IMG/VR virus record: IMGVR_UViG_3300009168_000111
Location: 1-24,050 of that record
Length of the DNA stretch: 24,050 nt
Source: a virus
Strand: one strand, 5' to 3'
Both the position numbers and the translations under genes were made by a program. The notes beneath the pieces were generated by a model, which saw nothing but the letters and a program-made list of their open reading frames with translations, was not told the DNA's origin and made no database searches. Shown piece by piece: positions 4,546 to 23,052 of this stretch; position 1 is the stretch's first letter; every line of letters starts with the position of its first letter.

Positions 4546-5076
4546 ATGAACATCTTTGCAGTTCACGAAAGTCCGTATGTGGCAGCACATCAACTGTGCG
4601 ATAAGCACGTGGTAAAAATGATCGTAGAAGGCTGTCAAATGCTTTCTACGATCCATCGTATGTCTTCGAGTCATGTTATTCATGCACCTGTAGAACTCTA
4701 TAAGGAATGTTTTCATAATCATCCATGTACAATCTGGGCTCGGCAGACTTCAGAGAACTATTGCTGGCTGGCTGACCACACACTTGAACTTTCGCGCGAA
4801 TACACATTTCGGTATTCCAGAATTCACAAGTCTCATGATATGTGCAAGTGGTTTTCTCTGAACATTCCATGGAATGTACCATTTGGTGCAAGGACTGAGT
4901 TTGCTCAGGCAATGCCCGATAAATACAAGGATCAGTCTTCCATCGTTGCGTATCGTAGGTATTATGTGAACGAGAAGATGAAGTTCGCCAAGTGGAAGTA
5001 TTCTGAAAAGCCAGAGTGGATTGATGATGAAAACTTGAAGGTTAATGATGTGCCAATGCAAGTATTGCAATCGTGA
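4546..5076 (+). CDS. Conserved phage protein of unknown function
   Basis: 176 residues. The pattern MNIFAVHESPYVAAHQLCDK followed by HVVKM, then HPCTIWAR, EYTFRY, and a C-terminal AMPDKYK / AYRRYY / FAKWK, is that of a protein family widespread in T4-like and other large phages. I cannot assign it a biochemical activity with confidence. The conserved His, Cys and Trp/Tyr residues suggest an enzyme. The start codon coincides with the predicted transcription start and no SD exists, so translation is probably leaderless. The HNH gene overlaps its 3' end by 32 bases. Confidence 0.82.
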   Translation: MNIFAVHESPYVAAHQLCDKHVVKMIVEGCQMLSTIHRMSSSHVIHAPVELYKECFHNHPCTIWARQTSENYCWLADHTLELSREYTFRYSRIHKSHDMCKWFSLNIPWNVPFGARTEFAQAMPDKYKDQSSIVAYRRYYVNEKMKFAKWKYSEKPEWIDDENLKVNDVPMQVLQS

Positions 5077-5392
5077 ATTTGTTCCGAGAAAGAAAAAAGG
5101 CTGCAGCGTTTGTTCGTCCTGCGATGTGACAAAGCGTAGGTGGGAATCACGGAAGGAGTTGATCACCAGTCTCGGTGGTAAATGCACCAAGTGTGGTTTC
5201 TCTGGATGTCCAGCCTCCCTGCAATTTCATCATCTTGATCCTACAAATAAAAAATATGGTTTGTTTTCAAAGAATCTTCTGAGGGCAGATCGATTTGTTG
5301 AAGCCAGTAAATGTATTCTTCTATGTGCGAACTGTCATATCGAAGAACACACGAACCAGGAACTTCTCAAAAAAATGGGCGTGGTCGTTTGA
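5045..5392 (+). CDS. HNH endonuclease
   Basis: 115 residues. Zinc-ribbon-like cysteines occur near the N-terminus (C3, C5, C8, and C20/C23/C26). The HNH core follows: C47-x2-C50, LQFHHLDP with H62/H63 and D65, and C94-x2-C97-H98 ending in H102. This is the layout of small free-standing phage HNH nucleases, which nick or cut DNA using one metal ion; many are homing endonucleases. It starts inside the preceding gene, and its TGA lies in the -35 of the following promoter. Whether it is mobile or a phage-encoded restriction/repair nuclease cannot be told. Confidence 0.85.
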   Translation: MMCQCKYCNREFVPRKKKGCSVCSSCDVTKRRWESRKELITSLGGKCTKCGFSGCPASLQFHHLDPTNKKYGLFSKNLLRADRFVEASKCILLCANCHIEEHTNQELLKKMGVVV

Positions 5393-5433: not shown

Positions 5434-5505
5434 GCTTTGGTGGCAGACTAGTAATGCAGCACCCTTTTAAGGTGAAGAATGTGGGGGCAGTACCCACCCA
5501 AAGCA
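5434..5505 (+). tRNA. tRNA-Lys (anticodon UUU), atypical
   Basis: A perfect 7-bp acceptor stem GCTTTGG / CCAAAGC, discriminator A, no encoded CCA. D stem GCA/TGC, anticodon stem with loop CTTTTAA giving anticodon TTT at 5466-5468, and a 5-bp T stem GTGGG/CCCAC. The T loop is GGCAGTA instead of the usual TTCRAAT, and the D loop (GACTAGTAA) lacks the GG pair, so the normal D-loop/T-loop contact is missing. It has its own consensus promoter. It is either a functional but structurally unusual tRNA or a decaying one. Confidence 0.72.
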
Positions 5506-6395: not shown

Positions 6396-6628
6396 GTCAG
6401 TATCGTCTGCATATCGACATTCCTCTCCCATTGACCGAAAGTGATGCCATCATCAAGGCAGAGATGATTATGGCCCTACTCAAGAAGGCTTCACTTACGG
6501 AATTGAGTGTAGAGGAAGTAAACTACAGGCTCGGTCACGATGATGACCGTCAGAAATCTAATTACATGATGAAGAATGAGAACGGACATGTCAACAACAA
6601 GAAGTGCAAGATCAAAGTCCAAGACTAA
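6392..6628 (+). CDS. Hypothetical protein, coupled to the deaminase
   Basis: 78 residues. The start overlaps the deaminase stop (ATGA). The first half (RLHIDIPLPLTESDAIIKAE) looks like a strand-helix unit; the second half is charged and probably disordered. No domain is recognised. Its 3' end overlaps a second small reading frame that begins at 6588. Confidence 0.7.
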   Translation: MSQYRLHIDIPLPLTESDAIIKAEMIMALLKKASLTELSVEEVNYRLGHDDDRQKSNYMMKNENGHVNNKKCKIKVQD

Positions 6629-6731
6629 GTATTTGTTTTTATTTGTTATTTTGCTTGGTTTGCTGATTCCACCAAGAATTTTCATTACCACAAAAATTAG
6701 AAACACTGCAATATGTCTTTGTGATAAATAA
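6588..6731 (+). CDS. Possible small membrane protein overlapping the upstream gene
   Basis: A 47-residue frame: a basic N-terminus (RSARSKSKTK), one hydrophobic stretch YLFLFVILLGLLIPP (residues about 14-28), then a short tail with two Cys. This is a single-span membrane protein pattern. It overlaps the 3' end of the preceding gene by 41 bases in another frame, has only a weak SD-like GGAC just before the ATG, and stops a few bases ahead of the tmRNA. Phage lysis accessory or toxin-like peptides can look like this. Composition is the only evidence. Confidence 0.42.
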   Translation: MSTTRSARSKSKTKYLFLFVILLGLLIPPRIFITTKIRNTAICLCDK

Positions 6732-6737
6732 AAATGA

Positions 6738-7098
6738 TATCGTTGATCTACGTGATCAACCCTTTTGGACGGGGGTGCGAATCCCCCCGACTCCATTCGA
6801 CACTATTGGCGTTCTGACGGAAACGCGGTCTTGACAAGAGATGCGCTTGCGTAAAACGGTAATCGGGTTCACCCGCCTAGACCGACAAAGCAAGATAGAT
6901 GGTGTAATCCATCATGGTGTCACAAACTACGGGGTCGAATAGAATCGACAGGGGGAAGTGAGCGTCAGGGAGATATCCGAGAGGTAGCCAACAACCCTCG
7001 TTAAATGCCAAAGTCGGCAACCACAAAAGCCGCACCAATGCGGATGGCTGCTTGAAGCAGTGGGGAATGGTTCACCCGCATCTGAACGAACCACCCAC
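6738..7098 (+). ncRNA. ssrA: Circularly permuted (two-piece) tmRNA
   Basis: The 3' tRNA half comes first: T arm GGGGG-TGCGAAT-CCCCC (6771-6787), acceptor strand CGACTCC (6788-6794), discriminator A6795. After 135 bases the 5' half follows: acceptor strand GGGGTCG (6931-6937), then AGAATCGACAGG and GATATCCGAGAGG, which align with the conserved GGATTCGACGG and GCATGCCGAGG of E. coli tmRNA. The two acceptor strands pair over 7 bp including G3-U70, the alanine identity pair. A PK1-like fold (CGAG with CTCG, GGTA with TGCC) precedes the tag frame GCA...TGA at 7017-7055, encoding ATTKAAPMRMAA. Order acceptor-spacer-coding is that of permuted ssrA genes of alphaproteobacteria and some cyanobacteria. 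It should rescue stalled ribosomes and tag their products. The 5' end is uncertain (a hairpin starts at 6742), as is the exact resume codon. Confidence 0.93.
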
Positions 7099-7120
7099 CA
7101 GTAATGGTGGGTTTATTTTT
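7094..7120 (+). terminator. Rho-independent terminator of tmRNA
   Basis: Stem CCCACCA / TGGTGGG with loop GTAA, then TTTATTTTTT. Its left arm can alternatively pair with GTGGG at 7060-7064 in the tmRNA body. Confidence 0.88.
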
Positions 7121-7198
7121 TATACATAAATTAGGATGGCGGTATGAATTCTTTATTTTGCTTTAGTATCTCTTTTTACCAAATTTTAGGGGATTTAT

Positions 7199-7528
7199 AT
7201 GCAAAGTAATGATGATTTCCATACGCAACTTCTTAAATACGGCATAGACATAGGATTTCTTCTTTCAGGGTTCTTCGGAGCACTGCTTCTTTCAATAAAG
7301 AAGAAAAAGCAAAAGATAAGCAAATCAATCGGATGCATATTTGCAGGAACGATATGTGCGAACTACTTGACACCGTTCATTCTTCACTTTGCACCTGATT
7401 CAATACAGGAAAAGGGTAAATATGCAGTGGCCTTTATGATGGGATATATCGGCCTTAAGGGGCTTGAGTTCATTGTGGATACAATCGTAGAATATGTTGA
7501 TTCAAGAAAACCCAACCCAAAAGACTAA
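7199..7528 (+). CDS. Probable holin
   Basis: 109 residues with three hydrophobic segments (about residues 17-31, 42-63 and 73-95), a Lys-rich loop KKKKQKISK between the first two, and a charged C-terminus. The pattern GFFGALLLSI, then IFAGTICANYLTPFI, then AFMMGYIGLKG, matches small phage holins that share an 'AxYLTP' middle segment. Holins form the inner-membrane lesions that time lysis. AGGGGA sits about six bases before the ATG. It follows the tmRNA terminator. The gap 7121-7198 holds a late-like CATAAATT (7125-7132) and a 21-codon frame (7144-7209) that overlaps the holin start. No endolysin lies beside it. Confidence 0.68.
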   Translation: MQSNDDFHTQLLKYGIDIGFLLSGFFGALLLSIKKKKQKISKSIGCIFAGTICANYLTPFILHFAPDSIQEKGKYAVAFMMGYIGLKGLEFIVDTIVEYVDSRKPNPKD

Positions 7529-7535
7529 AAGACTC

Positions 7536-7563
7536 TTGACAAAGCCAAGACTTGTGCTATAAT
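7536..7563 (+). promoter_or_regulatory. Host-type sigma-70 promoter for tRNA-Ile
   Basis: TTGACA (7536-7541), 16-base spacer, TATAAT (7558-7563) with extended -10 TGC. Predicted start about 7570, three bases before the tRNA. Confidence 0.87.
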
Positions 7564-7572
7564 TCCCTCAAC

Positions 7573-7647
7573 GCGCTGTGGGAGGTCTTGGTTATCTCAG
7601 CCCGACTTATAATCGGGTAAGACTAGGTTCGATTCCTAGACAGCGTA
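7573..7647 (+). tRNA. tRNA-Ile (anticodon UAU)
   Basis: Acceptor GCGCTGT / ACAGCGT (first pair G-U), anticodon stem CCCGA/TCGGG with loop CTTATAA giving anticodon TAT, T arm CTAGG-TTCGATT-CCTAG, discriminator A, no CCA. UAU reads the AUA codon, which is frequent in this AT-rich genome and usually served by a lysidine-modified CAU tRNA in bacteria. The 3' end is two bases before the next start codon. Confidence 0.88.
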
Positions 7648-7649
7648 TT

Positions 7650-7838
7650 ATGCCAAAGCGAGTCATCGACAGACTGGATATCGAAGCCGAGCGTGAAGGT
7701 CTTGCATTCAAGACACAACTAGGTCAGATATCGCGTGTAGGCTGGGGAAAGGGTATTCTCAAGCAACGGAGAATGCACTTGGATGGGGATAAGAAGATCG
7801 AATGTCGGACGATCAAGGAACGATATTCCAGGATCTAA
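7650..7838 (+). CDS. Small basic hypothetical protein behind tRNA-Ile
   Basis: 62 residues starting MPKRVIDRLDIEAEREG, basic, no domain recognised. The ATG lies two bases after the tRNA discriminator, with no room for an SD, so 3' processing of the tRNA would leave an essentially leaderless mRNA. A longer frame running back through the tRNA is discounted because it would translate tRNA sequence. The stop TAA is part of the late box for the next gene. Confidence 0.62.
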   Translation: MPKRVIDRLDIEAEREGLAFKTQLGQISRVGWGKGILKQRRMHLDGDKKIECRTIKERYSRI

Positions 7839-7841
7839 ATA
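7834..7841 (+). promoter_or_regulatory. Late promoter box (TCTAAATA)
   Basis: Same sequence as the box at 578-585. It lies five bases before the ATG at 7847 and includes the stop codon of the preceding gene. Confidence 0.6.
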
Positions 7842-7846
7842 CTCAT

Positions 7847-8197
7847 ATGAAGATCACTGATATCTTGGAGAAGTTCAAAAATGTGGGTGTCCAGAAAACC
7901 AAAACTGGAGACGATAGGATTTTCTTTTTAGATGAAGAAAATGATGTATTATATTGTTTTGGACCTTCAAAATATGTGAGAAAGGCATTGGAAAACAAAG
8001 ACTCCACTAGAGTTATGATTGTGGAGTACGAAAATGGTCCATACCTTCAAGTTGGTGATAATGTATATGGTGATAAGATTGTGCGTGACTTTGAATTTGA
8101 TGAAGATCATGGAATAGTCATAACAGGAATGATTCTTGAACAAAAGTATCATGAATCAAATGATGTTGAAATTGGGGATATGGGTTTAATTGTGTAA
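7847..8197 (+). CDS. Acidic hypothetical protein under a late-type box
   Basis: 116 residues from the ATG at 7847 (an upstream ATG at 7802 lies inside the preceding gene). Acidic, probably mostly beta: FFLDEENDVLYCFGPSKY, VMIVEYENGPYLQVGD and GIVITGMIL look like paired strands. The N-terminus MKITDILEKF only loosely resembles the capsid-targeting leaders. No domain is recognised. Late-type box five bases upstream, no SD. Confidence 0.72.
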   Translation: MKITDILEKFKNVGVQKTKTGDDRIFFLDEENDVLYCFGPSKYVRKALENKDSTRVMIVEYENGPYLQVGDNVYGDKIVRDFEFDEDHGIVITGMILEQKYHESNDVEIGDMGLIV

Positions 8198-8269
8198 TTT
8201 TATTTAATTTTTTCACCGAGTTTGATTACGCTTCATGCGTCCAAAAAAGGTCAAAATCTTAGGCCCGTC

Positions 8270-8322
8270 ATAGCGAGAATAATCTTATACATATTAGGGA
8301 GGTTCGACTCCTCCCATCCCCA
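8270..8322 (+). other. tRNA 3'-half-like sequence
   Basis: GGAGG-TTCGACT-CCTCC (8298-8314) is a textbook T arm, followed by CATCCCC and a discriminator-like A at 8322. No matching 5' acceptor strand or D arm lies at the right distance; the only near complement, GGGGATA at 8174, is about 150 bases upstream inside a coding region. The rest of 8198-8297 shows a small hairpin (ACGC...GCGT near 8227-8239) and no gene. It may be a degraded or interrupted tRNA. Like the intact tRNAs it directly precedes a start codon (8328). Confidence 0.4.
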
Positions 8323-8327
8323 CTGTT

Positions 8328-8549
8328 ATGAGCAATAATAAAAAACTCTACTACGCAAAATGTGAAGTCGATGGAAGATGCATCGACATGCTTTTAAGTG
8401 AAACTGAAATTGCAAGAGCAAGCAAACGTTTGCTTGCTGATGAGAACAAGAAGTTCATACCTGAAACTTGCAATACTTGTTGGCCGATTGAGCAGCCGCC
8501 AAAATGCTCATTCTGGAATCGAATTATTGGCAATTGTAAATGTGACTAA
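8328..8549 (+). CDS. Small Cys-containing hypothetical protein
   Basis: 73 residues. The C-terminal half has paired cysteines (ETCNTCWP, PPKCSF, GNCKCD at residues about 47-72), suggesting a small zinc- or disulfide-stabilised knot. No family is recognised. The ATG follows the tRNA-like sequence by five bases and has no SD. It is followed three bases later by the Sm-like gene. Confidence 0.68.
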   Translation: MSNNKKLYYAKCEVDGRCIDMLLSETEIARASKRLLADENKKFIPETCNTCWPIEQPPKCSFWNRIIGNCKCD

Positions 8550-8552
8550 ATT

Positions 8553-8882
8553 ATGAGCGACAAAATTTCTATTCTTCGTCTTAACTCTGGTGAAGAGATC
8601 ATCTGCACCTACACCACCAATATCAATAACGATGGTGAATTCATTGTAATCAAGCAGCCAGCCATTCTGATTCCTGGACCCGAGGGTAAGCTTATGTTTG
8701 CCAAGTGGCTTCCCTACATGAAGCAGGACAATGGAATCAGTCTGAAGCGTGAGCATGTTGTCTTTGAAGGAGAGCCAATGGAGGATCTCAAGGATCACTA
8801 CCTCTCGGTTGTCGTCAACAACCTGTTTGTGCCTTCGAAGAAGGTTGCAACCCCAGAACTCAAGTTAGCACTTGACCGCTGA
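8553..8882 (+). CDS. Sm/SH3-like small barrel protein
   Basis: 109 residues. The first 60 (ILRLNSGEEIICTY..., then FIVIKQPAILIP, then LMFAKWLPY) follow the strand pattern of bacterial Sm/Hfq-like barrels: a 'L-x-x-G-x-x-I' turn, a strand leading to 'P-x-x-I', and a closing strand. The C-terminus ends in VPSKKVATPELKLAL. Such proteins are common in marine T4-like phages and their role is unknown; RNA binding is a guess from the fold. No SD; probably coupled to the upstream gene. Its stop lies between the -35 and -10 of the tRNA-Arg promoter. Confidence 0.78.
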   Translation: MSDKISILRLNSGEEIICTYTTNINNDGEFIVIKQPAILIPGPEGKLMFAKWLPYMKQDNGISLKREHVVFEGEPMEDLKDHYLSVVVNNLFVPSKKVATPELKLALDR

Positions 8883-8906
8883 GAAGATGGTGGTATAATA
8901 CCACCA
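8872..8906 (+). promoter_or_regulatory. Host-type promoter with -10 inside a perfect palindrome
   Basis: TTGACC (8872-8877), 16-base spacer, TATAAT (8894-8899), extended -10 TGG. The -10 lies within the perfect 9+1+9 palindrome TGGTGGTAT-A-ATACCACCA (8888-8906), which could be an operator or, in readthrough RNA, a hairpin. No T-run follows, so it is not a standard terminator. It drives tRNA-Arg. Confidence 0.8.
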
Positions 8907-8910
8907 CTGT

Positions 8911-8984
8911 ATTCCCGTAGCTCAGTTGGATAGAGCATCGGTTTTCTAAACCGATGGTCAGGGGTTCGAGTCCCTTCGGGAATG
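8911..8984 (+). tRNA. tRNA-Arg (anticodon UCU)
   Basis: Fully canonical: acceptor ATTCCCG/CGGGAAT, D arm GCTC...GAGC with GG in the loop, anticodon stem TCGGT/ACCGA with loop TTTCTAA (anticodon TCT), T arm AGGGG-TTCGAGT-CCCTT, discriminator G. It reads AGA/AGG, which most Arg codons here use. Confidence 0.95.
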
Positions 8985-8999
8985 TTCAAGGAGAAAACT

Positions 9000-9341
9000 A
9001 TGCGAAACTATTCACTACTTTTTATCGTACTGGCCTTTTCAATTCTCGTTTTCAGTTCACTCTATTCATTCGTGAATGGGGATGAAAAGCTCTTCCATGC
9101 AGGAATCTTCACATTCGGTATTCTTGTATCGTTTGGAGCACTGACCACTGCACTTCTCTCACCCAGTGAGAAGGAGGAACTGGAACGTCAGAACCAGTTG
9201 GATGATCTTTATCGCCACATCGATAATGTATCGAAGGCGTCTAATGATGATCTTGTCACGACTGAGCGTTGGGTGGGCAACGAGCTTGAGCGAGTCGAAA
9301 ATCGAATCGAAGCACTCAAGCCAGCCCGAAAGAAGGCTTGA
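9000..9341 (+). CDS. Membrane protein with coiled-coil tail
   Basis: 113 residues from the ATG at 9000, which has AAGGAG six bases upstream, directly after tRNA-Arg; an ATG at 8982 lies within the tRNA and is rejected. Two hydrophobic spans (residues about 6-24 and 36-55) are followed by a charged helical tail (about 57-113) with heptad spacing, likely a coiled coil in the cytoplasm. No known family is recognised. Roles such as lysis control or superinfection exclusion are only possibilities. A terminator follows. Confidence 0.8.
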   Translation: MRNYSLLFIVLAFSILVFSSLYSFVNGDEKLFHAGIFTFGILVSFGALTTALLSPSEKEELERQNQLDDLYRHIDNVSKASNDDLVTTERWVGNELERVENRIEALKPARKKA

Positions 9342-9350
9342 ATCAACGAG

Positions 9351-9377
9351 AAACCCGATCAGAAATGATCGGGTTTT
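9351..9377 (+). terminator. Rho-independent terminator
   Basis: 11-bp stem AAACCCGATCA / TGATCGGGTTT with a GAAA tetraloop and a T-run. It ends the tRNA-Arg/membrane protein transcript. Confidence 0.93.
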
Positions 9378-9385
9378 TTTATTTT

Positions 9386-9393
9386 CATAAATA
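9386..9393 (+). promoter_or_regulatory. Late promoter box (CATAAATA)
   Basis: Fits NATAAATA; placed just after a terminator and six bases before the ATG at 9400, the same layout as at 578 and 4118. Confidence 0.65.
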
Positions 9394-9399
9394 TTTGCG

Positions 9400-9630
9400 A
9401 TGTACGAATTATACTTCGCATACAACTTTACCACATTTTCAGTTGCCCCTCGAAGGGATATATTGAAAATACCTGAATGTAAAATTAAAAAGTATGATGT
9501 GGCGAATGATAACGTAGAGTTAGTGGTTGTATGTGAATCTCAGGACATTGCTGAGAAGTTAAAACATTATATGCTTATTCGATTTGAGATATTTGCGAAG
9601 AAGGAACTTCCGTTATCTCCTGAAGTTTAG
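9400..9630 (+). CDS. Small hypothetical protein under a late-type box
   Basis: 76 residues starting MYELYFAYNFTTFSVAP. An alternating strand/helix pattern suggests a small alpha-beta domain. No family is recognised. No SD; the predicted transcription start coincides with the ATG. Its last 18 bases overlap the 3' end of the converging minus-strand gene. Confidence 0.68.
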   Translation: MYELYFAYNFTTFSVAPRRDILKIPECKIKKYDVANDNVELVVVCESQDIAEKLKHYMLIRFEIFAKKELPLSPEV

Positions 9631-10623
9631 AGACTGATTAACGAATAAGTTGTCCAATAGTTGATTGTTTTGCTCACTTATTAGGGTCAACTTCTCAATC
9701 GCTGAATCCTCACGAACATTTTCAGTAATCTCTGGGCAGAAAGCATCTTTGGTAAAGGATGCTGTTTGCTTTATCTTTGAATTCTTTCTCAGATAGCATT
9801 GGAGTTCCGATTGATTGTCATAACATGCTGCTGATGTCGAGGAAATGACATTGCATTGTCCTACGATTTCAGTGCTAAATTTGGTCACATCAGTATCATC
9901 TTTGTTTTCGGTGTAGATTACTATATTCGTTAGACTGCTGGTTCTATCCTCATATGATAATGAGCCAGCCACGGTTATTACTTCTTTTCCATCATCCTGA
10001 TATTTTATATCAGTTATTTGATATTTTTTATCTAGATCCGTAATTCCAATGATGTCACCGACCTGAACTCCAAGATAACTGAATGAATTTTTCGAGTTTT
10101 TTCCAAAGATATTGACTATATTCGTATAGAAGTCATTTTCCTGGGTAGTAGAAACAGTCAAATCAAAATTTGGTGTCTGTAGGAAATATTCTTTATCGTA
10201 ACGATTGATCTTGGAATCTAGATTCGAGATACTTACCACGTTTGCAAACAATATATTATTCTCAAACTTTTCAATTGTATAACTTCCATTGAGAGAAACT
10301 TTCAACGAAGTCAATTGAGGATTATACCATTCACCTTCTGTTATGGTAAACGCCGTTGATGTGAGGTTTCTAGTGAAGAATTCTTCTACATCCTTGATGC
10401 TTGTCTTGTTCTTATAATCCGTGAAGTCAACCATCACTTTAGTGTTGCTGGAATAAAATATAAAATTAGGAGATGAAACGAGTCCTCTCTTGAATGATGA
10501 GGACTCGTTTCTCAACTTTTCAAACTTCAACCCATAGAAGGAAGACGATCTTACAGCAATAAAATTCTTATCCTGACCAAGAGGAATATTTTTATTTTTT
10601 GTGTATGATGATCTCGAAAGCAT
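9613..10623 (-). CDS. Putative virion structural protein
   Basis: 336 residues, Ser/Thr/Asn-rich and beta-rich with no membrane segment. Residues about 160-245 (a G-V-Q-V-G-D-I-I-G-I pattern followed by YQITDIKYQDDGKEVITVAG) read like a small barrel domain in which a ligand-binding loop enters a 'V-G-D' turn. The last 90 residues contain four or five Cys and end in a helix. It starts one base after the stop of the 424-residue gene, so the two form an operon. Together they look like a fibre or baseplate-peripheral module, but neither has a recognised homologue. Confidence 0.75.
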   Translation of the reverse strand: MLSRSSYTKNKNIPLGQDKNFIAVRSSSFYGLKFEKLRNESSSFKRGLVSSPNFIFYSSNTKVMVDFTDYKNKTSIKDVEEFFTRNLTSTAFTITEGEWYNPQLTSLKVSLNGSYTIEKFENNILFANVVSISNLDSKINRYDKEYFLQTPNFDLTVSTTQENDFYTNIVNIFGKNSKNSFSYLGVQVGDIIGITDLDKKYQITDIKYQDDGKEVITVAGSLSYEDRTSSLTNIVIYTENKDDTDVTKFSTEIVGQCNVISSTSAACYDNQSELQCYLRKNSKIKQTASFTKDAFCPEITENVREDSAIEKLTLISEQNNQLLDNLFVNQSLNFRR

Positions 10624-10624
10624 G

Positions 10625-11899
10625 TTATGATGCTATGTAATTGACTTTCTGAGCACCAGCCGAGGACAGAACGTATATCTTGTTGAGATTATCTATTTCG
10701 AAGAACAGAGACTCACCAGGATCGAGTGGGAATCCCGACAGGGACGAGGAGGACAGATTGGAGCCTCCGACGTAGATCGTGTTGGTGTTCGTTATAGGGG
10801 CTTTGATGTGAACTCCAGACTTGATCGTAGTTGATGTTGAAACAATTATTGAGGCAACCGTCGAAACATCCTTTGATCCACTGAATAGCTTGGTTGGCTT
10901 TACGATTTCATTGATCTTTGCAGAAACTGTTCCAGCAGTCAGTTTATCATTGATTGTTGATATGACGGCTGTATTCGTCTTGATGCTGGCAAGATTTGAA
11001 ACCAGTGGTTTACTCGTTGACTCAAGAGAATTTATGATGTCTGTATCATTTACATTTACATCACCAGATACTCCAACAGTCAGAGCAGAATAAGAAACTA
11101 CTTCAAGTGCTCCACCACCGATGGTTCCCTTGACCAGAATTGGGCTGTCAGAAGTGACTCCGCTACCTATTACCTTGAGTGGAAGACCATTTCCATTGGT
11201 CACACCAATAACAGGATTGATGGTGATTGAGAAAGTAACTCCCGCGTTGACCAGATTGACATTCAGGGCATCACCAGAATGACCGAGCGTATGACCGTCT
11301 GAGGCGTAGATTCTTCCGAGTACCTTACCCCCTAGATCAGAGCCAAACACGGCCACGCTGTCTGTGCCTGCCGCTAGACCAAAGCCACCACAGATACCAA
11401 CATAACCCTTGACATTTACATAATCGGTGCTCCAAGAAAGATTTCTTCCACCAGTGACGGCCACAGGTACACCGTTGGTTACGCCGACTATGGATGAATT
11501 GCCTATAAGCTTGACACTTCCAGTCACACCGAGTAAAATACCGTTTGTAGCACCTTGAACATGACCAATGACCTGTACAGGTTTATAGTTATCTGGCGTG
11601 TTGCCGCTAGGACCACCGACGATCAAGAATGTTCCAGATCTATTGGAAACCGCCACAGATCCAGTTATGGCAGAGAAAGTGACTCCTAAATAATTATTGG
11701 TGACACCTAGAATCTGAACTGGAAGAGGATAAGTTTCTGAAACTCTAAAACCCTGTGCATCTGCACCCCAGACGAGTTTCTGAAGAGGTAAATGAGCGAG
11801 AGAAAGTCCAGAACCACTTGTAGCATAGTCAGTACCGAGAACCGCAGTTCCATCGTATGTGGTTATGATTATATTGTTATTGGTATCTGCTGTAGGCAT
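10625..11899 (-). CDS. Putative virion/fibre protein with G-V-T repeats
   Basis: 424 residues, very rich in Gly, Ser, Thr and Val. Short repeats of the form I-x-G-V-T-N/G occur near residues 62, 118, 132 and 225, typical of phage fibre or decoration proteins with repeated beta-strands. The C-terminus (FPLDPGESLFFEIDNLNKIY followed by VLSSAG) resembles a small beta-sandwich cap often found at the end of phage structural proteins. The start has AAGGAT about eight bases upstream. The 33-bp gap to the divergent gp33 gene is AT-rich. It probably acts with the 336-residue downstream protein. Confidence 0.78.
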   Translation of the reverse strand: MPTADTNNNIIITTYDGTAVLGTDYATSGSGLSLAHLPLQKLVWGADAQGFRVSETYPLPVQILGVTNNYLGVTFSAITGSVAVSNRSGTFLIVGGPSGNTPDNYKPVQVIGHVQGATNGILLGVTGSVKLIGNSSIVGVTNGVPVAVTGGRNLSWSTDYVNVKGYVGICGGFGLAAGTDSVAVFGSDLGGKVLGRIYASDGHTLGHSGDALNVNLVNAGVTFSITINPVIGVTNGNGLPLKVIGSGVTSDSPILVKGTIGGGALEVVSYSALTVGVSGDVNVNDTDIINSLESTSKPLVSNLASIKTNTAVISTINDKLTAGTVSAKINEIVKPTKLFSGSKDVSTVASIIVSTSTTIKSGVHIKAPITNTNTIYVGGSNLSSSSLSGFPLDPGESLFFEIDNLNKIYVLSSAGAQKVNYIAS

Positions 11900-11932
11900 T
11901 CTAAATCCTTATAAAATTATATATAACAAACT

Positions 11933-12160
11933 ATGATATTCGATATAACAAAAGAACAATTCTCTCGAAAGGTCGAGGGATACGTAAAAACCACCAGATA
12001 CAGCTACATAGAGGCAGTCATACAGTCTCTGGAGGATTTTTCTCTGGATTCTTCGCAGGCTTCTAAGTTGCTAACCCAACCATTACTGGAAAAAATCGAG
12101 CAGGAAGGAATTGAAATTAATCTGATACGAAAGAAGAAAAGCAAGCTTCCTTTTGCTTGA
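11933..12160 (+). CDS. 33: gp33-like late-transcription co-activator
   Basis: 75 residues: MIFDITKEQFSRKVEGYVK, SYIEAVIQSLEDFSLD, then a C-terminal helix ending in IEINLIRKKK. The size, the Y-I-E/D-A-V-I-x-x-x-E segment and the position just upstream of gp32 match gp33 of cyanophage-type T4-like viruses. T4 gp33 binds the RNA polymerase beta flap and links gp55-polymerase to the gp45 sliding clamp, enabling late promoters such as those found in this window. Its TGA stop lies inside the -35 box of the gp32 promoter. Assignment rests on pattern and synteny. Confidence 0.75.
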   Translation: MIFDITKEQFSRKVEGYVKTTRYSYIEAVIQSLEDFSLDSSQASKLLTQPLLEKIEQEGIEINLIRKKKSKLPFA

Positions 12161-12184
12161 CAAATAAAAAACAACTGATATAAT
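12157..12184 (+). promoter_or_regulatory. Host-type sigma-70 promoter of gp32
   Basis: TTGACA (12157-12162), 16-base spacer, TATAAT (12179-12184), extended -10 TGA. Predicted +1 about 12191, exactly the foot of the first leader hairpin. Confidence 0.88.
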
Positions 12185-12190
12185 ACTAAG

Positions 12191-12241
12191 AAGTGGGGAG
12201 TTCCCACTTAGTCAGAGTCCGAAGGAGATCTTCGGGAAAGG
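12191..12241 (+). promoter_or_regulatory. Structured gp32 mRNA leader
   Basis: Two stable hairpins: AAGTGGG-GAGTT-CCCACTT (12191-12209), beginning at the predicted 5' end, and CCGAAG-GAGAT-CTTCGG (12219-12235), which holds an AAGGAG. The likely ribosome site AAAGG (12237-12241) follows, ten bases before the ATG. T4 gp32 represses its own translation by binding a leader pseudoknot and then the adjoining unstructured RNA. This leader has the same general plan, but I could not find a definite pseudoknot pairing. Confidence 0.6.
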
Positions 12242-12251
12242 TAAAAAACAC

Positions 12252-13148
12252 ATGAGCACATTCAAGGATTTCAAGAACAAGTCAAAGAACAGCATTTCGG
12301 ATCTTATGAAGAAGTTGGACGATTCTTCTAAGAAGGATTACAAGGATGATCGTTTCTGGCGTCCAGAACCAGACAAGATGGGAAACGGATTTGCGATCAT
12401 TCGTTTCCTCTCAGCCCCAGAGAATGAGGATTCACCTTGGGTGAAGACTTTCTCTCACGCATTCCAAGGACCAGGTGGTTGGTATATCGAGAATTCTCTC
12501 ACTACCCTCAATCAGAAGGATCCCGTCAGTGAGTTGAATACCCAACTCTGGAATACTGGGTCTGAGGAAGACAAGAACATCGCTCGTTCCCGTAAGCGCA
12601 AGACCACCTACACTTCAAACATCCTTGTGATCAAGGATGAAGCGAATCCCCAGAACGAGGGTAAGGTGTTCCTCTTCAAGTACGGAACCAAGATCTTCGA
12701 TAAGATTCAGGAGAAGATGAAGCCAGAGTTCAAGGATGAGGATCCAATTGATCCTTTCAATCTCTGGACTGGCTGCAACTTCAAGCTGAAGATTCGCAAG
12801 GTCGGAGGATTCACCAACTACGACAAGTCTGAGTTTGATTCTACAAGTCCTCTGTTTGGTGGGGACGACGCTCAGATTGAAAAGCTCTGGCGTTCAGAGC
12901 ACAGTCTCGTTCAGTTCACGACTCCAGACAACTTCAAGTCTTATGATGAACTGAAGAAGCGTCTTCATGACGTACTTGCTGGTGATATTCGTGGTGGTGC
13001 TCCAATGAACGAGAAGACTGCCGAAGACATCGACGAAGATGACTTCAAGCAGAAGCCTCCTCAGATGAAGCAGAAGCCGAAGATTGAGGAGTCCGTCGAT
13101 GAAGAGATGGACGCACTCAAATACTTCGAACAGTTCAAGAACGCTTAA
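12252..13148 (+). CDS. 32: Single-stranded DNA-binding protein gp32
   Basis: 298 residues (T4: 301). A basic, Lys-rich N-terminus (residues 1-29) serves cooperative binding. The OB-fold core runs from GFAIIRFLSAP (46-56) through GGWYIEN (75-81), KRKTTYTSNILVIKD (115-129) and NEGKVFLFKYG. The acidic tail (about 245-298) is the partner-binding region. The zinc ligands of T4 gp32 (H64, C77, C87, C90) align with H69, S82, D90 and S93, so the three Cys are lost. It coats ssDNA in replication, recombination and repair. Its own promoter and a structured leader precede it, and a terminator follows. Confidence 0.95.
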   Translation: MSTFKDFKNKSKNSISDLMKKLDDSSKKDYKDDRFWRPEPDKMGNGFAIIRFLSAPENEDSPWVKTFSHAFQGPGGWYIENSLTTLNQKDPVSELNTQLWNTGSEEDKNIARSRKRKTTYTSNILVIKDEANPQNEGKVFLFKYGTKIFDKIQEKMKPEFKDEDPIDPFNLWTGCNFKLKIRKVGGFTNYDKSEFDSTSPLFGGDDAQIEKLWRSEHSLVQFTTPDNFKSYDELKKRLHDVLAGDIRGGAPMNEKTAEDIDEDDFKQKPPQMKQKPKIEESVDEEMDALKYFEQFKNA

Positions 13149-14462
13149 TCATCCAACATTCGCTCTCCAAACGGGGAGCGATTTGTTTTTCAGATCCTGA
13201 TCGTAATGCAAAGCCTTTCCAACATTTTTAGGAATTGAAATCGCAGCCTGATCTATTACAGGATTATTTGCGGCTCTTTGTCCTCTAAGAATATGCCCAA
13301 ACTCATTTATGATGTTGTCATCGGTTTTTTCCTGTGGAAGAGTTTCTTTTGACTCTGGCTTTTTAAGATTAGCGGAAACCAGATCTGGTTCGGAGTTATC
13401 AACCATTGGTTGACTCTTTGGTTTGAGATCAATGCTAGATTCATTCTTTAAGATACCAGAATTCTGACCAGTCAGCATTTTGGTTTCTTTCTGAGTCAAT
13501 ACAACCTCACCTCTGTGCATCTTACCTATGGTATCACTCTTCAGAGGTCCGTTGGTTCCATCCGCAAATGCTGGTAGAGCATAGACAGCCGTTTTAGTCT
13601 GTGCATTGATGTTCTGGGTTGTGTTGCGATTAATTGTATTGTTGGTGACGGACTCTCTTATATTATTGATTACCGATGATTTTTCGGGTTCAAATGATTT
13701 TTTAGGAGTTTCTCTGAGAACTGTTTCTCGCAACTTCACAAGTTCAGTCTTGCTTGGTATGTAAATTTTTCTTACATCCAATGACTTGCTGTTCGCAATA
13801 TTCGTGACATTTATTTTCTTCAATTCATCTGGAGATTCTATGTACTTCATCTCCAGATTGTTCTTTACCATATTGATGTTAGGTGGAGCTGATCTGTAAT
13901 TTCTTGTCGTATTGACGATATAATTTTTCGTATATTTTTTGCTATTATTGATAACATTTGTATTCTCTTGTTTTACCGTCTCTACATTTGTTATTGGAGT
14001 TTCAAGGTTTATGTTAGAAAATTTATAACTCTTTTCTATATTTACAGAACTGCTCTTAACATTTGCTGATTTTGTTGTTTTAGTCGATTGTTTGCTTTCC
14101 TTTGGCCCACCTAGAGTTTGCACTTCAGTGTTGTTCTTTACGACTGTATTAACCACTTCCTTTGTTTCCGTGGGTTTCTCGATGTAAAGAGTTCTTGGGC
14201 CAGTGGCAATTCTTTCTATGGAGGATGCTTTCTTACCAGATAGCTTGACATAAGAGAGCTTCGAAGGAGCATCTGGATTTTTCATCCAGATGGTTTCCTT
14301 CGTCTTTAATTTTTCAACTGGTGTCAGATTTATCGACTGTTCTGGCTTTTCTGCAACGAGATTGAACTTTACGTTTCTTTTGGATACAACCAAGCCCTTT
14401 TTAAAGTATAGACTCTTCAATCTGCTTTTGAGTGCTTCGAATTGTTTCCTTTTTCTGCTCAT
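13149..14462 (-). CDS. Putative tape-measure-like tail protein
   Basis: 437 residues. A basic N-terminus (1-60), a long Asn/Thr/Lys-rich low-complexity middle (about 90-300), then AVYALPAFADGTNGPLKSDT, IGKMHRGEVVLTQKE (about 305-340) and a short tail. The 'PAFADGT...G..H.GEVVL' segment resembles one near the C-terminus of many phage tape-measure proteins. Its position after gp26 and a small frame-shifted ORF matches the chaperone-chaperone-tape-measure order of other tailed phages. T4's tape measure gp29 has 590 residues and lies in a similar cluster. The ATG overlaps the upstream stop (TAATG). A gp29-equivalent role is an inference. Confidence 0.62.
   Translation of the reverse strand: MSRKRKQFEALKSRLKSLYFKKGLVVSKRNVKFNLVAEKPEQSINLTPVEKLKTKETIWMKNPDAPSKLSYVKLSGKKASSIERIATGPRTLYIEKPTETKEVVNTVVKNNTEVQTLGGPKESKQSTKTTKSANVKSSSVNIEKSYKFSNINLETPITNVETVKQENTNVINNSKKYTKNYIVNTTRNYRSAPPNINMVKNNLEMKYIESPDELKKINVTNIANSKSLDVRKIYIPSKTELVKLRETVLRETPKKSFEPEKSSVINNIRESVTNNTINRNTTQNINAQTKTAVYALPAFADGTNGPLKSDTIGKMHRGEVVLTQKETKMLTGQNSGILKNESSIDLKPKSQPMVDNSEPDLVSANLKKPESKETLPQEKTDDNIINEFGHILRGQRAANNPVIDQAAISIPKNVGKALHYDQDLKNKSLPVWRANVG
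13161..13190 (+). terminator. Terminator of gp32
   Basis: Stem CGCTCTCC / GGGGAGCG (one T-G pair), loop AAAC, then ATTTGTTTTT. It overlaps the 3' end of the converging minus-strand gene, encoding part of its last residues. Confidence 0.85.
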
Positions 14463-18264: not shown

Positions 18265-21200
18265 ATGGATAATCCTGAATTTAATAATAATTTTATCACC
18301 TGTCTTTCAAGTGTTTCGATAATCAAGAATGGTGTCGAATTTACAGTATTTCCTTTTGAACTCAGCAAAGACTTTCCCATGGAAAGTCTTCAGTTCAATG
18401 AAAGCATCAATAGCTCCAACATGGGAGGAATGCTCTTTATAAAGGACATGTTCGGTTGGTCTGAGCAGCTGAACACTCATTCGTTTGAAAAACTCATTAT
18501 CAAGTACACAAGCAAAAAACCATCAAATCAAGATTTATTTGAACTCAAAACTCTTGAGTTTAATATTTTCGCAGTTTCTCAGGTGACCGATAGACCAATG
18601 AAGCTGATGATGACTGATGGTTCAGTTTATACCATAATCAGACTCGACTTCACTACTGATGATATATTTGTAAATAAGCTCACTTCTGAGTTTTTTCCAG
18701 AAGGGAAAGATTTTGTTGGATACATCGCATCTGGAAGAGGCAGTCGTCTGCCAGGTCTGGTAAATTCAATATTCAGTAAATTAAAACTAGATCAATACGA
18801 AATTGAACCAACATTCAATGGTGTGTGGATAAAGTCAAACGAAGTCTCATATCCATGGGCAAAGCATAAAGGTCAGATGACTCTGACTAATCTGTTTCAA
18901 TACATCTGTAATTATGCAATTTCATCTTCAAACGTGAATGCTGTAAATTACTTCATGTGGAGAGATCGTGATGGATATCATTTCAAGTCAGTTGAGAGAA
19001 TGATCAGGGATCAGAAGAACGCAGAACTTGAACAGATTTATTTCACTACTGATACTGGAACAGTGAATGGTGTTCGAAGAATCGAGCAGATGCATGAGCC
19101 AAATATTTATCAGCTCACAAAACTTAACGTATTCCAATCATTCTATGAAAAAATAGTTCCAAACTATGAAGATTATTATCTTGATTTCGTAGATTCATCC
19201 ATATCATTCACAAGAAAAGTGGTAGATATGGATTACCACAAGGATTCTAATCTATGGAGTAGAATCGAAAGATACAAGATAATTCCAGATGCACAGAAGA
19301 CTTCTGTATTTTCTGAAGATTTGGCAGGCAGAAGAACCAATGCGGAAAAAACACCCGTACAGAGTCTTAGAATAGACGATAACATCTACGGCTATTATGA
19401 CGAGAGCAGACTTAATACTCCATTTCCACAACCGTGGGAATACATTGGAAAGACTGCAGATTCAAGATGGAATGATGTCAGCTATATTCCACAATATGAC
19501 ATGACCGATCTGGATGTCATTACATTCCACACCATACACAAGAAGATTCGAGAGCCTCTGAGGGAAAAGAGAGCTCGATACTCATATCTGAAGAATCTCA
19601 AGAGAAAATGGGAAGTGTATCGATGCAAGGTATGCTGCTTAGCCGATAGACTTGGTGGTATTCAGGATCAGCTCGATATCGAGAGACTACAGGCAATTCA
19701 GAATCCAAATGACAATGCAGACTTCCTTGCGCTGTTCGGACCAACTGGAATATTTGCAGATTCAAATATAGAATATCGTATTGCAGCAGCTGGTTCATTT
19801 AGTGATGTTTATAACTTTGATACCACTATAGATGGCAACCGTGGTTTGAGTCTTTCATATGATCTGGGTGGAATCACATACGGTCAGACTATTCGTGAGT
19901 TCTATAACTTTGCCGAATCATTTGATAATTATGAAAAGCATATATTTACCAATGGGTTCAGAACTTATGACATAATGATTGAAAGAAGCCAACAAGTCAT
20001 AACCATGATTGATGAGTGGTTGGCTGTAGTTGACGGATATATTTCTAGTGCCGATGCTTTGTTGGCACAGAATCTGATACCAGATCCTTCAGACACAAGA
20101 ACTAGACTCGGTGATCCAACAACATTGAATCAAGGTCCGATATCACCACCTTTTACACAATTTGATCTATTTGAAATTTTAAGAACACAGATGCCCCAGT
20201 TTGTGAGAGATTGTTCTTCTCAAAAATATGTTTTTTCCAACTTTGAGGAAAGAATAAAGTTTGTTCCACCAATACCAAAACCACCTTATGGTGGTGGGTT
20301 GACTCCTTATGCGTATTACCTATTGACAACTGAGGGGGCTAACTTTACTCCAATTCTCAACGAGACGGCCACAAGTTATCAGGATATTTTAAATTTGGTG
20401 AACAGTGGTGATGTTTATTGCCCAATCTGTATCAATCCAGTTCTTTTGGAAATCAGCAAAAGAATGGCTAAACGACATAGAAAGGTTGAAGAGAATAAAA
20501 TCACACTTCTTCAACACATCAAGACTACCTTGCAGCAAGGAATGCAAGTAAAGTGGCAGCAGGCAAGAGATGAATATTTCAATAGAAAGGCATTCTTCAG
20601 ATCAAAGAAGGAAGCTAAAATAGATGAAAATATTCAGAATCTTCTTGTGAGTAATCTTTCTCTCTTGAATATTAAGAAGATTACAAGAAAGCCAGTTAGA
20701 GGATCAAGATACGAAATACTGGCGAGAAACAGAGGCATCACTGGCGCTGAAGTTGGACCTTACCTCTATAATGTATTCTTCGATGATTATGATCTAGAAG
20801 TTCCTGGTGATATTGAGGGAGTTCATCCTTACTATGATGCTGGATATGATACTTCCATATCAGCGGATGCAAATATTTTTTCAGCATATGTTCCACTGCC
20901 TCAGCCTAGAAGAACTAAAGTAATTAAAGATATTCTCCTGACGAATAACGGTCCTTACGCATCTCAATTTGCTTATACACAATATAGGAACAACAATGAG
21001 TTTCCTGGTTTCGTTGAAATGCATAATCAGGCACCATATGCCCTTTCGGCTAATAACCAAAGCATTATTGATTTAACATTCTCAAATAATACTTTAAGAA
21101 GACTCTCACAGACACATGATGTAAGTCAATATGACACTAGATTCAATCTTTTCAGACCAGATGTTGGATTCATAAAGCCACCAAACATCAAGAGGGAGGA

Positions 21201-23052
21201 GCTCTCCTCCTATGTCAGAATTGAATTCTCTGAACCTATTGGTCTTGACTCAATCGTTGATTTTCCAGATGGATTCGTTCGAAATGCTGGATATGAATAC
21301 TTCCTGCCATACATTGTTTCATTGACTGCTGGCCCAAACGGACGACAAACGATTAATCAGAATGTAGTTGTAATCGGAATGGATCCTTATGGATTTGATG
21401 TCGCCATGAAGAGAATGAAGGAACCAGAGCTAAATGGCAAGTTCTACTGGTGGAACGCTGGTATTGAGTCTCCTGGAATGGATCTATGGCCTGAAATCGC
21501 ATTCGAGACAAGATATCCATATTACACGATGCATCAACCCGATGAGCGAATGTTTCTGATGAATGATGACATTGATGGAAGTCTTTCTGGTTCTCGATAT
21601 TTCACCGTCTCTAATTTATACACCAGAGAAGACAGAAGTAGTGCAGGAACTGCGTTTAATACTTATTCCGAGACAGCCTTTCCACTGAATATTATTTCAG
21701 ATCCATCTAGGGTGTCTAATTATTTTACAAATGATTTTGACCATAATGATGAACAGCCTAATGATAAAATAACTCACTCTAAGTATGAACCATTTCTCAG
21801 AAATACTTTGAATGCTTCGAATTATCTTTTTGATTCACATAGAGTCAAGAAAGTTCAAAGAAACTGGTGGTCATTTCATATACCAGATAATCTTTTAATT
21901 GTACCATATTTTCAAGATGTTTTTGAAAACATTGAAGTTACTCCATCATATGCTTCAGGTGTAGGTGTGGATAATCCATCTGCAAGAGAAAATATATTTT
22001 TCAACGATTATCCACGACCATTTTCATCTCTGGATCCATCTGATTCACCAGTCGAAGATTGCAAATTAAGACTTCGAAGAGTTGGCATCGGAGATACTAA
22101 TTTGAAGACATTGCTTGACAGCTTTGATGCAAATCAGGAACCGATTCAGTTCTTCTTTGAAGAAAGCCATTTTGACTATAAGCTAAACGGATTCAAAGAT
22201 GATTCTGGTATTCTGAATAGCACACATCCAAGTCTGCAGAAATACTTCACGGATATCACAAACTGGTGGATGACTGGAGATCATATCATCTACAGACCAG
22301 GTATTCTCACGGAGGATGTCTGGAAATATGATATATCTGGACATAGCGATTATGGTGTGGTTCATCCCCCAGTACAAGCTAACCACAGCGATATCTTTGA
22401 CAGCAACTTTGCTGCCCAGTTCGTGGTGTTTGCCAGAACCTCAAAGAATTTCTGCCTCAGAAATAATCTCACTTGTATAAATCCAAATGCTCCAGTCTAT
22501 ACCACTGGATGCACGGCAGGCAATCCATATTGCAACTGCCCAGCGCAGGACAGAAAACCAAACGCCCCAGAGCCATCCTATCTGGAACTCTACAAGCTTG
22601 AGCAGGAGCTCAAGGAATGTTCACTGATAGAGCAACACTTGGGTCAAGAATGGCTTGGTTGTGTCTGGTCTAGCCCAGAAAACACGGGAAGCTGCAATTG
22701 CCCAGAGATTGGTGATAAGTTCATGGATTATCTGGCCTATTCGAGAACCTATGCCACTTTCTGGAGTACTCCAGCCAAGACTCCACTTTATAGAAATACT
22801 CAGTATAACTTGCTATTTGCACAAACTCTCCAGGTAATCATTCCAAGAAATGAAAACATCAAGATCGGATCAATCGTATCCGTGGAGGATAGAAGTGAAA
22901 TCAATGAAGAGAAATATAGAAGATTTGGTGGCAAATGGCTAGTAACGGAGATTTCTAATATTTTCTATGCAAATAAGGATTTCATGAGTCTGACCTTAAA
23001 CAGAGATTCATTCAGCAACAACCCAAACAGAACAAATCAACCAGAGGTTTAA
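18265..23052 (+). CDS. Giant baseplate hub protein (gp27/gp5 position)
   Basis: 1595 residues. Residues about 1-270 show two gp27-like hub domains (SVSIIKNGVEFTVFPFELSK, NSSNMGGMLFIKDMFG, then WAKHKGQMTLTNLFQYI). The last 90 residues (LQVIIPRNENIKIGSIVSVE, then GGKWLVTEISNIFYANKDFM) look like the closing barrel of a hub protein. Between them lie over 1000 residues without a recognised domain. They include a helical part (about 435-480 and 720-790), CxxC pairs (454-458, 719-722) and a Cys-rich block (about 1402-1480) with two CNC motifs. No lysozyme motif like that of T4 gp5 was seen. Gene order 53 - this - 25 - 6 places it at the hub locus. The hub role is well supported by context; the insert is unexplained. 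Confidence 0.82.
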   Translation: MDNPEFNNNFITCLSSVSIIKNGVEFTVFPFELSKDFPMESLQFNESINSSNMGGMLFIKDMFGWSEQLNTHSFEKLIIKYTSKKPSNQDLFELKTLEFNIFAVSQVTDRPMKLMMTDGSVYTIIRLDFTTDDIFVNKLTSEFFPEGKDFVGYIASGRGSRLPGLVNSIFSKLKLDQYEIEPTFNGVWIKSNEVSYPWAKHKGQMTLTNLFQYICNYAISSSNVNAVNYFMWRDRDGYHFKSVERMIRDQKNAELEQIYFTTDTGTVNGVRRIEQMHEPNIYQLTKLNVFQSFYEKIVPNYEDYYLDFVDSSISFTRKVVDMDYHKDSNLWSRIERYKIIPDAQKTSVFSEDLAGRRTNAEKTPVQSLRIDDNIYGYYDESRLNTPFPQPWEYIGKTADSRWNDVSYIPQYDMTDLDVITFHTIHKKIREPLREKRARYSYLKNLKRKWEVYRCKVCCLADRLGGIQDQLDIERLQAIQNPNDNADFLALFGPTGIFADSNIEYRIAAAGSFSDVYNFDTTIDGNRGLSLSYDLGGITYGQTIREFYNFAESFDNYEKHIFTNGFRTYDIMIERSQQVITMIDEWLAVVDGYISSADALLAQNLIPDPSDTRTRLGDPTTLNQGPISPPFTQFDLFEILRTQMPQFVRDCSSQKYVFSNFEERIKFVPPIPKPPYGGGLTPYAYYLLTTEGANFTPILNETATSYQDILNLVNSGDVYCPICINPVLLEISKRMAKRHRKVEENKITLLQHIKTTLQQGMQVKWQQARDEYFNRKAFFRSKKEAKIDENIQNLLVSNLSLLNIKKITRKPVRGSRYEILARNRGITGAEVGPYLYNVFFDDYDLEVPGDIEGVHPYYDAGYDTSISADANIFSAYVPLPQPRRTKVIKDILLTNNGPYASQFAYTQYRNNNEFPGFVEMHNQAPYALSANNQSIIDLTFSNNTLRRLSQTHDVSQYDTRFNLFRPDVGFIKPPNIKREELSSYVRIEFSEPIGLDSIVDFPDGFVRNAGYEYFLPYIVSLTAGPNGRQTINQNVVVIGMDPYGFDVAMKRMKEPELNGKFYWWNAGIESPGMDLWPEIAFETRYPYYTMHQPDERMFLMNDDIDGSLSGSRYFTVSNLYTREDRSSAGTAFNTYSETAFPLNIISDPSRVSNYFTNDFDHNDEQPNDKITHSKYEPFLRNTLNASNYLFDSHRVKKVQRNWWSFHIPDNLLIVPYFQDVFENIEVTPSYASGVGVDNPSARENIFFNDYPRPFSSLDPSDSPVEDCKLRLRRVGIGDTNLKTLLDSFDANQEPIQFFFEESHFDYKLNGFKDDSGILNSTHPSLQKYFTDITNWWMTGDHIIYRPGILTEDVWKYDISGHSDYGVVHPPVQANHSDIFDSNFAAQFVVFARTSKNFCLRNNLTCINPNAPVYTTGCTAGNPYCNCPAQDRKPNAPEPSYLELYKLEQELKECSLIEQHLGQEWLGCVWSSPENTGSCNCPEIGDKFMDYLAYSRTYATFWSTPAKTPLYRNTQYNLLFAQTLQVIIPRNENIKIGSIVSVEDRSEINEEKYRRFGGKWLVTEISNIFYANKDFMSLTLNRDSFSNNPNRTNQPEV

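Follow-up and report, generated by a model that had tools for sequence, protein, structure and literature searches.

The window, by which we mean the whole 24,050-nt stretch of DNA analysed, carries T4-like genes, including those for gp32, a gp33-type late coactivator and gp53- and gp25-like baseplate proteins. Its sequence holds a permuted tmRNA gene with its helices, a tag reading frame, a conserved RNA element in the spacer and a promoter box, and the gene lies in an inserted block together with a holin-like gene (Table 1). A sequence-only reading had proposed a permuted tmRNA gene in a T4-like phage here. The match to the Rfam model RF04321 and the T4-like gene set confirm the observation at this locus, and a permuted phage tmRNA is very likely. 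That reading was supported in part; it missed the published two-piece tmRNAs of phages, the conserved spacer RNA and the association with a promoter and a holin gene.

Table 1. Features of the tmRNA locus in the window
Feature	Position	Strand	Basis or remark
Inserted block with tmRNA and holin genes	6613..7530	+	Absent in closest relatives; 84% identical in L105
T4-late-type promoter box GATAAATA, predicted start 6736	6723..6730	+	TAAATA at fixed spacing in relatives
Acceptor RNA (3′ tRNA-like piece)	6736..6795	+	RF04321; covariation
Intervening spacer, 135 nt, predicted to be excised on maturation	6796..6930	+	Spacer of 6–205 nt in relatives
Conserved cloverleaf-like RNA element in the spacer	6799..6921	+	Model R1; covariation; single-sequence folds
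Coding RNA (5′ tRNA-like piece)	6931..7092	+	RF04321; covariation; PK2 strands vary together by eye
Tag reading frame ATTKAAPMRMAA and stop	7017..7055	+	Frame kept in 35/36 relatives
Intrinsic terminator	7093..7118	+	Predicted
Holin-like gene (phrog_2359) of the tmRNA block	7199..7528	+	Relatives at other loci
gp33-type late-promoter coactivator (phrog_254)	11933..12160	+	Supports T4-type late transcription

RF04321 is Rfam's merged alpha/beta/cyano permuted-tmRNA model (described in PMC11915505). Its match spans positions 6736–7055 of the window and scores 80.8 bits, the gathering cutoff being 47 (E = 2.6e-14 for a search of the window). When 150 Burkholderiales genomes were searched with the same model for calibration, the matches below the cutoff, presumably standard tmRNAs, reached at most 44 bits, and four matches exceeded it, three with 156–166 bits and one with 51.4 bits. 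The lineage-specific models fitted the window gene weakly, the best being beta_tmRNA (RF01850) with 40.6 bits, below its cutoff of 84. By lineage, the RNA lies nearest the beta models, yet far from the bacterial beta genes. Default ARAGORN, which is unreliable here, did not report the gene in the window, and relaxed settings returned AAPMRMAA* with misplaced ends.

The 3′ tRNA-like half precedes the 5′ half, as had been claimed, with 6736–6795 lying before the piece that starts at 6931. The acceptor RNA comprises a P2 strand, the T arm, the 3′ strand of the acceptor stem and A73 (6795), after which CCA is not encoded. The coding RNA comprises the 5′ strand of the acceptor stem, the D-loop core, the second P2 strand (6972–6977), PK1 (6978–7009), the tag and PK2 (7060–7092). 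All the elements named earlier, that is, the tmRNA core blocks, a PK1-like fold and a tag frame ending in AA, were found. The proposed piece ends, 6795 and 6931, agree with the sequence; the gene as a whole is somewhat wider than first described, with its 5′ end likely at 6736, the end of PK2 at 7092 and a terminator behind it.

The window gp32 has 396 relatives in IMG/VR, and among the best 80 of these records 8 carry a permuted tmRNA above the cutoff. Further contigs were found by the tag pattern and by spacer patterns, giving 36 unique genes that were dissected (single records are cited by L numbers); their kinship inflates the formal counts. The acceptor stem pairs GGGGUCG (6931–6937) with CGACUCC (6788–6794) over 7 bp including G3-U70, and this pairing is supported by its covariation in the 36 relatives, where the variants are GGGGUCG/CGACUCC, GGGGAUG/CAUCUCC, GGGGCUG/CGGCUCC and GGGACCG/CGGUUCC. 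Pairs 4–6 covary; none of the 36 genes departs from G-U at pair 3-70. Variation in the T stem leaves all cells but one paired. P2 (6736–6741 with 6972–6977), which joins both RNA pieces, pairs in every gene with changes on both sides (GAUAUC/GAUAUC, GAUAUU/GAUAUC, GGUAUU/GAUACC, GACAUU/GAUGUC, and GGCAUU with GAUGUC or GAUGCC); the lone five-pair row, in L145, comes from a strand misassigned by the search pattern, the true strand being GGUAUU. These changes on both sides of P2, the acceptor stem and the T stem show that the assembled two-part RNA is under selection. No full-length match to the window gene was found among 50,697 deposited phages, and the gene is a lineage separate from the published phage two-piece tmRNAs.

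The tag frame begins with GCA at 7017 and reads GCA ACC ACA AAA GCC GCA CCA ATG CGG ATG GCT GCT TGA. In 35 of the 36 genes a 12-codon frame precedes UGA or UAA and ends in A-(A/G)... A-P-M-R-(M/R)-A-A, and the changes in the last codons are mostly at third positions. Because the sample was partly picked by the tag pattern, it leans towards the APMRMAA-type ending, and among genes found by other routes there are different ones (for instance ANLIANNLAMAA in L286, as judged by eye). As to the earlier suggestion of a different tag, dozens of related phage genes share the APMRMAA ending; its pattern gave 20 matches in 84,980 bacterial and archaeal genomes, none of them with tmRNA context. Six genes of the GGCAACAUAAAU type are in frame only with resumption on GGC, and their preceding sequence is nearly as in the GCA group. 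A stop interrupts the tag frame of L138, and at the same spot before the tag a single A sets L284 apart from L286. More generally, one-nucleotide differences just before the tag shift the resume phase among otherwise similar genes (L284, L286, L138 and the GGCAACATAAAT genes). In this lineage, the phase of resumption may be flexible, or it may be set by some unseen factor.

T4-late-type boxes are enriched in the window. In T4, transcription from late promoters starts about 6 nt after the TAAATA box. Of the 36 genes, 20 have TAAATA 5–6 nt before P2 begins, the background rate being 0.0009 per position, a comparison whose formal probability overstates the case since the genes are related; several genes without the box, such as L037 and L038, sit directly after a tRNA. 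Taking the position of the box together with the T4 spacing, the predicted start coincides with the 5′ end of the acceptor RNA, its first paired base. The one-piece tmRNAs of the sister phages L295, L296, L298 and L299 have TATAAATA just before their 3′ acceptor part, at the place that the promoter box occupies in the permuted genes; this may be chance in an A/T-rich helix. It possibly hints at how the permuted form could arise.

Model R1 of the spacer element matches 17 tmRNA spacers, one tag-less gene and one free copy, and the spacers without the element are 6–11 nt long or have another structure. Folded one at a time, four divergent copies each give the same cloverleaf, to which a fifth helix resembling a variable arm is added. 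Over 17 distinct rows, 99.6% of cells are paired in an alignment that was fitted to the model, which favours high pairing; both sides changed in 12 of the 32 pairs, and pairing fell to 28–49% when the partner was shifted. The like folding of the four copies and the covariation both speak for a cloverleaf secondary structure. Across 14 genes, the mean pairwise identity of the spacer is 87%, that of the acceptor and coding pieces 73–77%. Between copies, the stem of the central hairpin switches from GUCUU/GAGAU to GAGUU/GACUC, yet the loop stays GANAA; pentaloops of this kind may resemble the boxB loops of phages. As a conserved structure, the spacer RNA is well supported by these comparisons of sequence. 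In one lineage (L117 and L121) the acceptor piece and the element are kept, the coding piece is degraded to a hairpin, and a terminator follows (L117, minus strand, 112–235 and flanks; L121, around 2640–2860). L127 has a shorter, free-standing copy where a tRNA array ends, and the tmRNA spacer of L192 also holds a tRNA-Pro.

Even with the threshold relaxed to E ≤ 10, nothing in Rfam matched the spacer element convincingly, and R1 had no match in T4 or Melnitz, a phage with a published two-piece tmRNA. A tRNA with an anticodon was considered and rejected: RF00005 did not match the window element or the L127 copy at E ≤ 10, and the central loop, UGANAAG, has G in place of U33. Relaxed ARAGORN calls the free copy in L127 a tRNA-Cys. 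A riboswitch, suggested by analogy with Melnitz, was likewise dismissed, given the lack of an Rfam match and the position of the Melnitz glutamine riboswitch after the tmRNA. In another group of tmRNAs (L141, L143, L127, L076 and others), spacers of 71–97 nt show a second structured type with two hairpins and an optional third, and a possible pseudoknot, CUGC/GCAG, in which both sides are changed in L143 (CUGU/ACAG).

The closest kin in the gp32 tree (L003, L009, L011 and L012) are collinear with the window on both sides and lack the ~0.9 kb of the block, in place of which L009, L012 and L003 have 38, 0 and 240 bp. Fragment L002, 98.6% identical over 7065–13200, supports the right-hand junction, and the tmRNA-holin block is present in L105, L038 and L071. 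In 17 of 36 loci a holin relative follows 120–236 nt after the tmRNA stop. Standard one-piece tmRNAs were found in ten related-phage records, several at the same place upstream of gp32, and those carriers with a place in the gp32 tree fall together in a single supported group. The permuted form may have arisen within these phages or have been acquired from a bacterium. Elsewhere in the window, Rfam, but not ARAGORN, finds a tRNA at 5434–5505, whose anticodon position carries UUU as judged by eye and whose unusual T loop, GGCAGUA, is shared with the Melnitz tmRNA; identity to L003 is 95% across this tRNA and ~75% in the flanks. A pyrimidine-dimer glycosylase-like gene (4546–5076) overlaps an HNH endonuclease gene (5045–5392), and 18265–23052 encodes a tail protein of 1595 aa in which the match to a known tail family (phrog_350) is confined to the final part.

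A search for SmpB found none in 40 records of up to 157 kb (the window fragment and 39 related or reference records), most of which are fragments, so that this count is provisional. The phage RNA would therefore need the SmpB of its host, and the claim that the phage supplies its own ribosome rescue holds for the RNA part only. The window RNA would likewise have to use host alanyl-tRNA synthetase and nucleases, and a rescue function with host SmpB is likely. The same 40 records, mostly fragments, gave no psbA, which argues against typical marine cyanobacterial hosts.

The whole is best explained by a T4-like phage having a functional permuted ssrA gene, which we regard as highly probable. For processing, two-piece maturation, charging, tagging and timing, we infer the following course. 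Phage late transcription would start at 6736 and stop at the terminator. Host RNase P and 3′-processing enzymes would cut out the 135-nt spacer, and the host CCA-adding enzyme would finish the 3′ end of the acceptor RNA. Held together by the acceptor stem and P2, the two-piece RNA would be charged by host AlaRS via G3-U70, and host SmpB would bring it to stalled ribosomes, which would add ATTKAAPMRMAA. The block of tmRNA and holin genes would be exchanged among related phages. Two points count against a working gene: the resume phase differs by one nucleotide within the family (GCA or GGC), and CCA is not encoded.

Other readings of the gene were weighed against a working ssrA gene. A decayed or decoy tmRNA that blocks trans-translation of the host has a precedent in the tag-less tmRNA of phage DS6A, which inhibits the host tmRNA (PMC11915505), and the tag piece has been lost in L117/L121; however, the window gene has an intact tag frame, acceptor stem, G3-U70, PK1 and PK2, all of them under selection in the relatives, which makes this reading improbable. 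Fragments of host ssrA left by prophage excision, or attachment sites, are known in temperate phages (discussed in PMC9004378), but the gene here is complete, has its own promoter box and terminator and occurs in T4-type phages, and neither an integrase in the window nor a bacterial copy of the tag was found; such an origin is very unlikely. Chance resemblance to a tmRNA, with which the silence of default ARAGORN would fit, has a negligible probability, being refuted by the covariation over 36 relatives in addition to the E value on RF04321.

The cloverleaf RNA of the working gene could be released as a third stable RNA or could serve as a processing module. As a mere processing aid or passive spacer, it would serve as a substrate for RNase P and 3′ processing between the pieces and then be degraded. 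Its place exactly between the two pieces fits this role, as does the use of other spacers, one with a real tRNA-Pro, by sister genes. However, genes with spacers of 6–11 nt manage without the element, the spacer is more conserved than the pieces that it separates, and the element is kept where the coding piece has degraded and stands as a lone copy by the tRNAs of L127; we give the processing role a real but less than even chance. Alternatively, the spacer may be a third stable, tRNA-shaped RNA with a fixed GANAA loop that is exchanged with tmRNAs and acts independently in infection, for instance by engaging a host translation or tRNA-binding factor as its ligand or decoy, a proposal that we put tentatively at close to an even chance.

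This lineage makes it possible to test why lytic phages carry a tmRNA: here the gene is linked with late transcription and with a holin and moves as a block, sister phages show standard and permuted forms, and the tag can be searched for in proteomes. The spacer of two-piece tmRNAs has been treated as discarded, being described as 'absent in mature tmRNA' (PMC11915505), and here it holds RNAs under clear structural selection. T4 itself has small stable RNAs in its tRNA cluster, rnaC and rnaD (139 and 119 nt); as kin of the spacer element they were rejected, since the model has no match in T4 and the sequences and predicted folds differ.

Two-piece tmRNAs are known from the T4-like phage Melnitz and about 50 other phages, with 53 two-piece phage genes found by ARAGORN (PMC9004378), and the tmRNA database holds 79 phage sequences as well as 72 permuted genes that lack a tag frame (PMC11915505). 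Among our relatives L117/L121 are likewise without the tag piece but keep the spacer element, whereas the window gene is intact. Betaproteobacterial RF01850 is the best lineage model for the window and most relatives, with a similar P2/PK1 layout; the bacterial genes differ in reaching 156–166 bits on RF04321, compared with 80.8 for the window, and, in those beta genes whose sequences were inspected, in short spacers and an ANDEHFAIAA-type tag. Melnitz (Methylophilales phage EXVC044M) resembles the window in having a permuted gene a few kb upstream of gp32 in a T4-like genome and, as a likeness in the promoter box, TATAAATA six nucleotides before the acceptor piece; its authors argued for early tmRNA expression (PMC9004378). 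The Melnitz gene is, however, of the alpha type (alpha_tmRNA, 106.7 bits), with CCA encoded, the canonical tag ANDNYVPVDYALAA and another spacer, whereas the window gene has the tag ATTKAAPMRMAA, no CCA and the cloverleaf element. The Melnitz spacer (L194, 9223–9361) starts with AAACACTT, ends with AAGTGTTT and shows by eye a small open frame (MFKWLSKTRLVVITRDYF...). In the open-licence literature we found no description of a structured spacer RNA, a late-type promoter on the first paired base or a tmRNA-holin block. Given the published two-piece tmRNAs of phages, the kind is not new, and the window gene represents a new lineage and variant of it.
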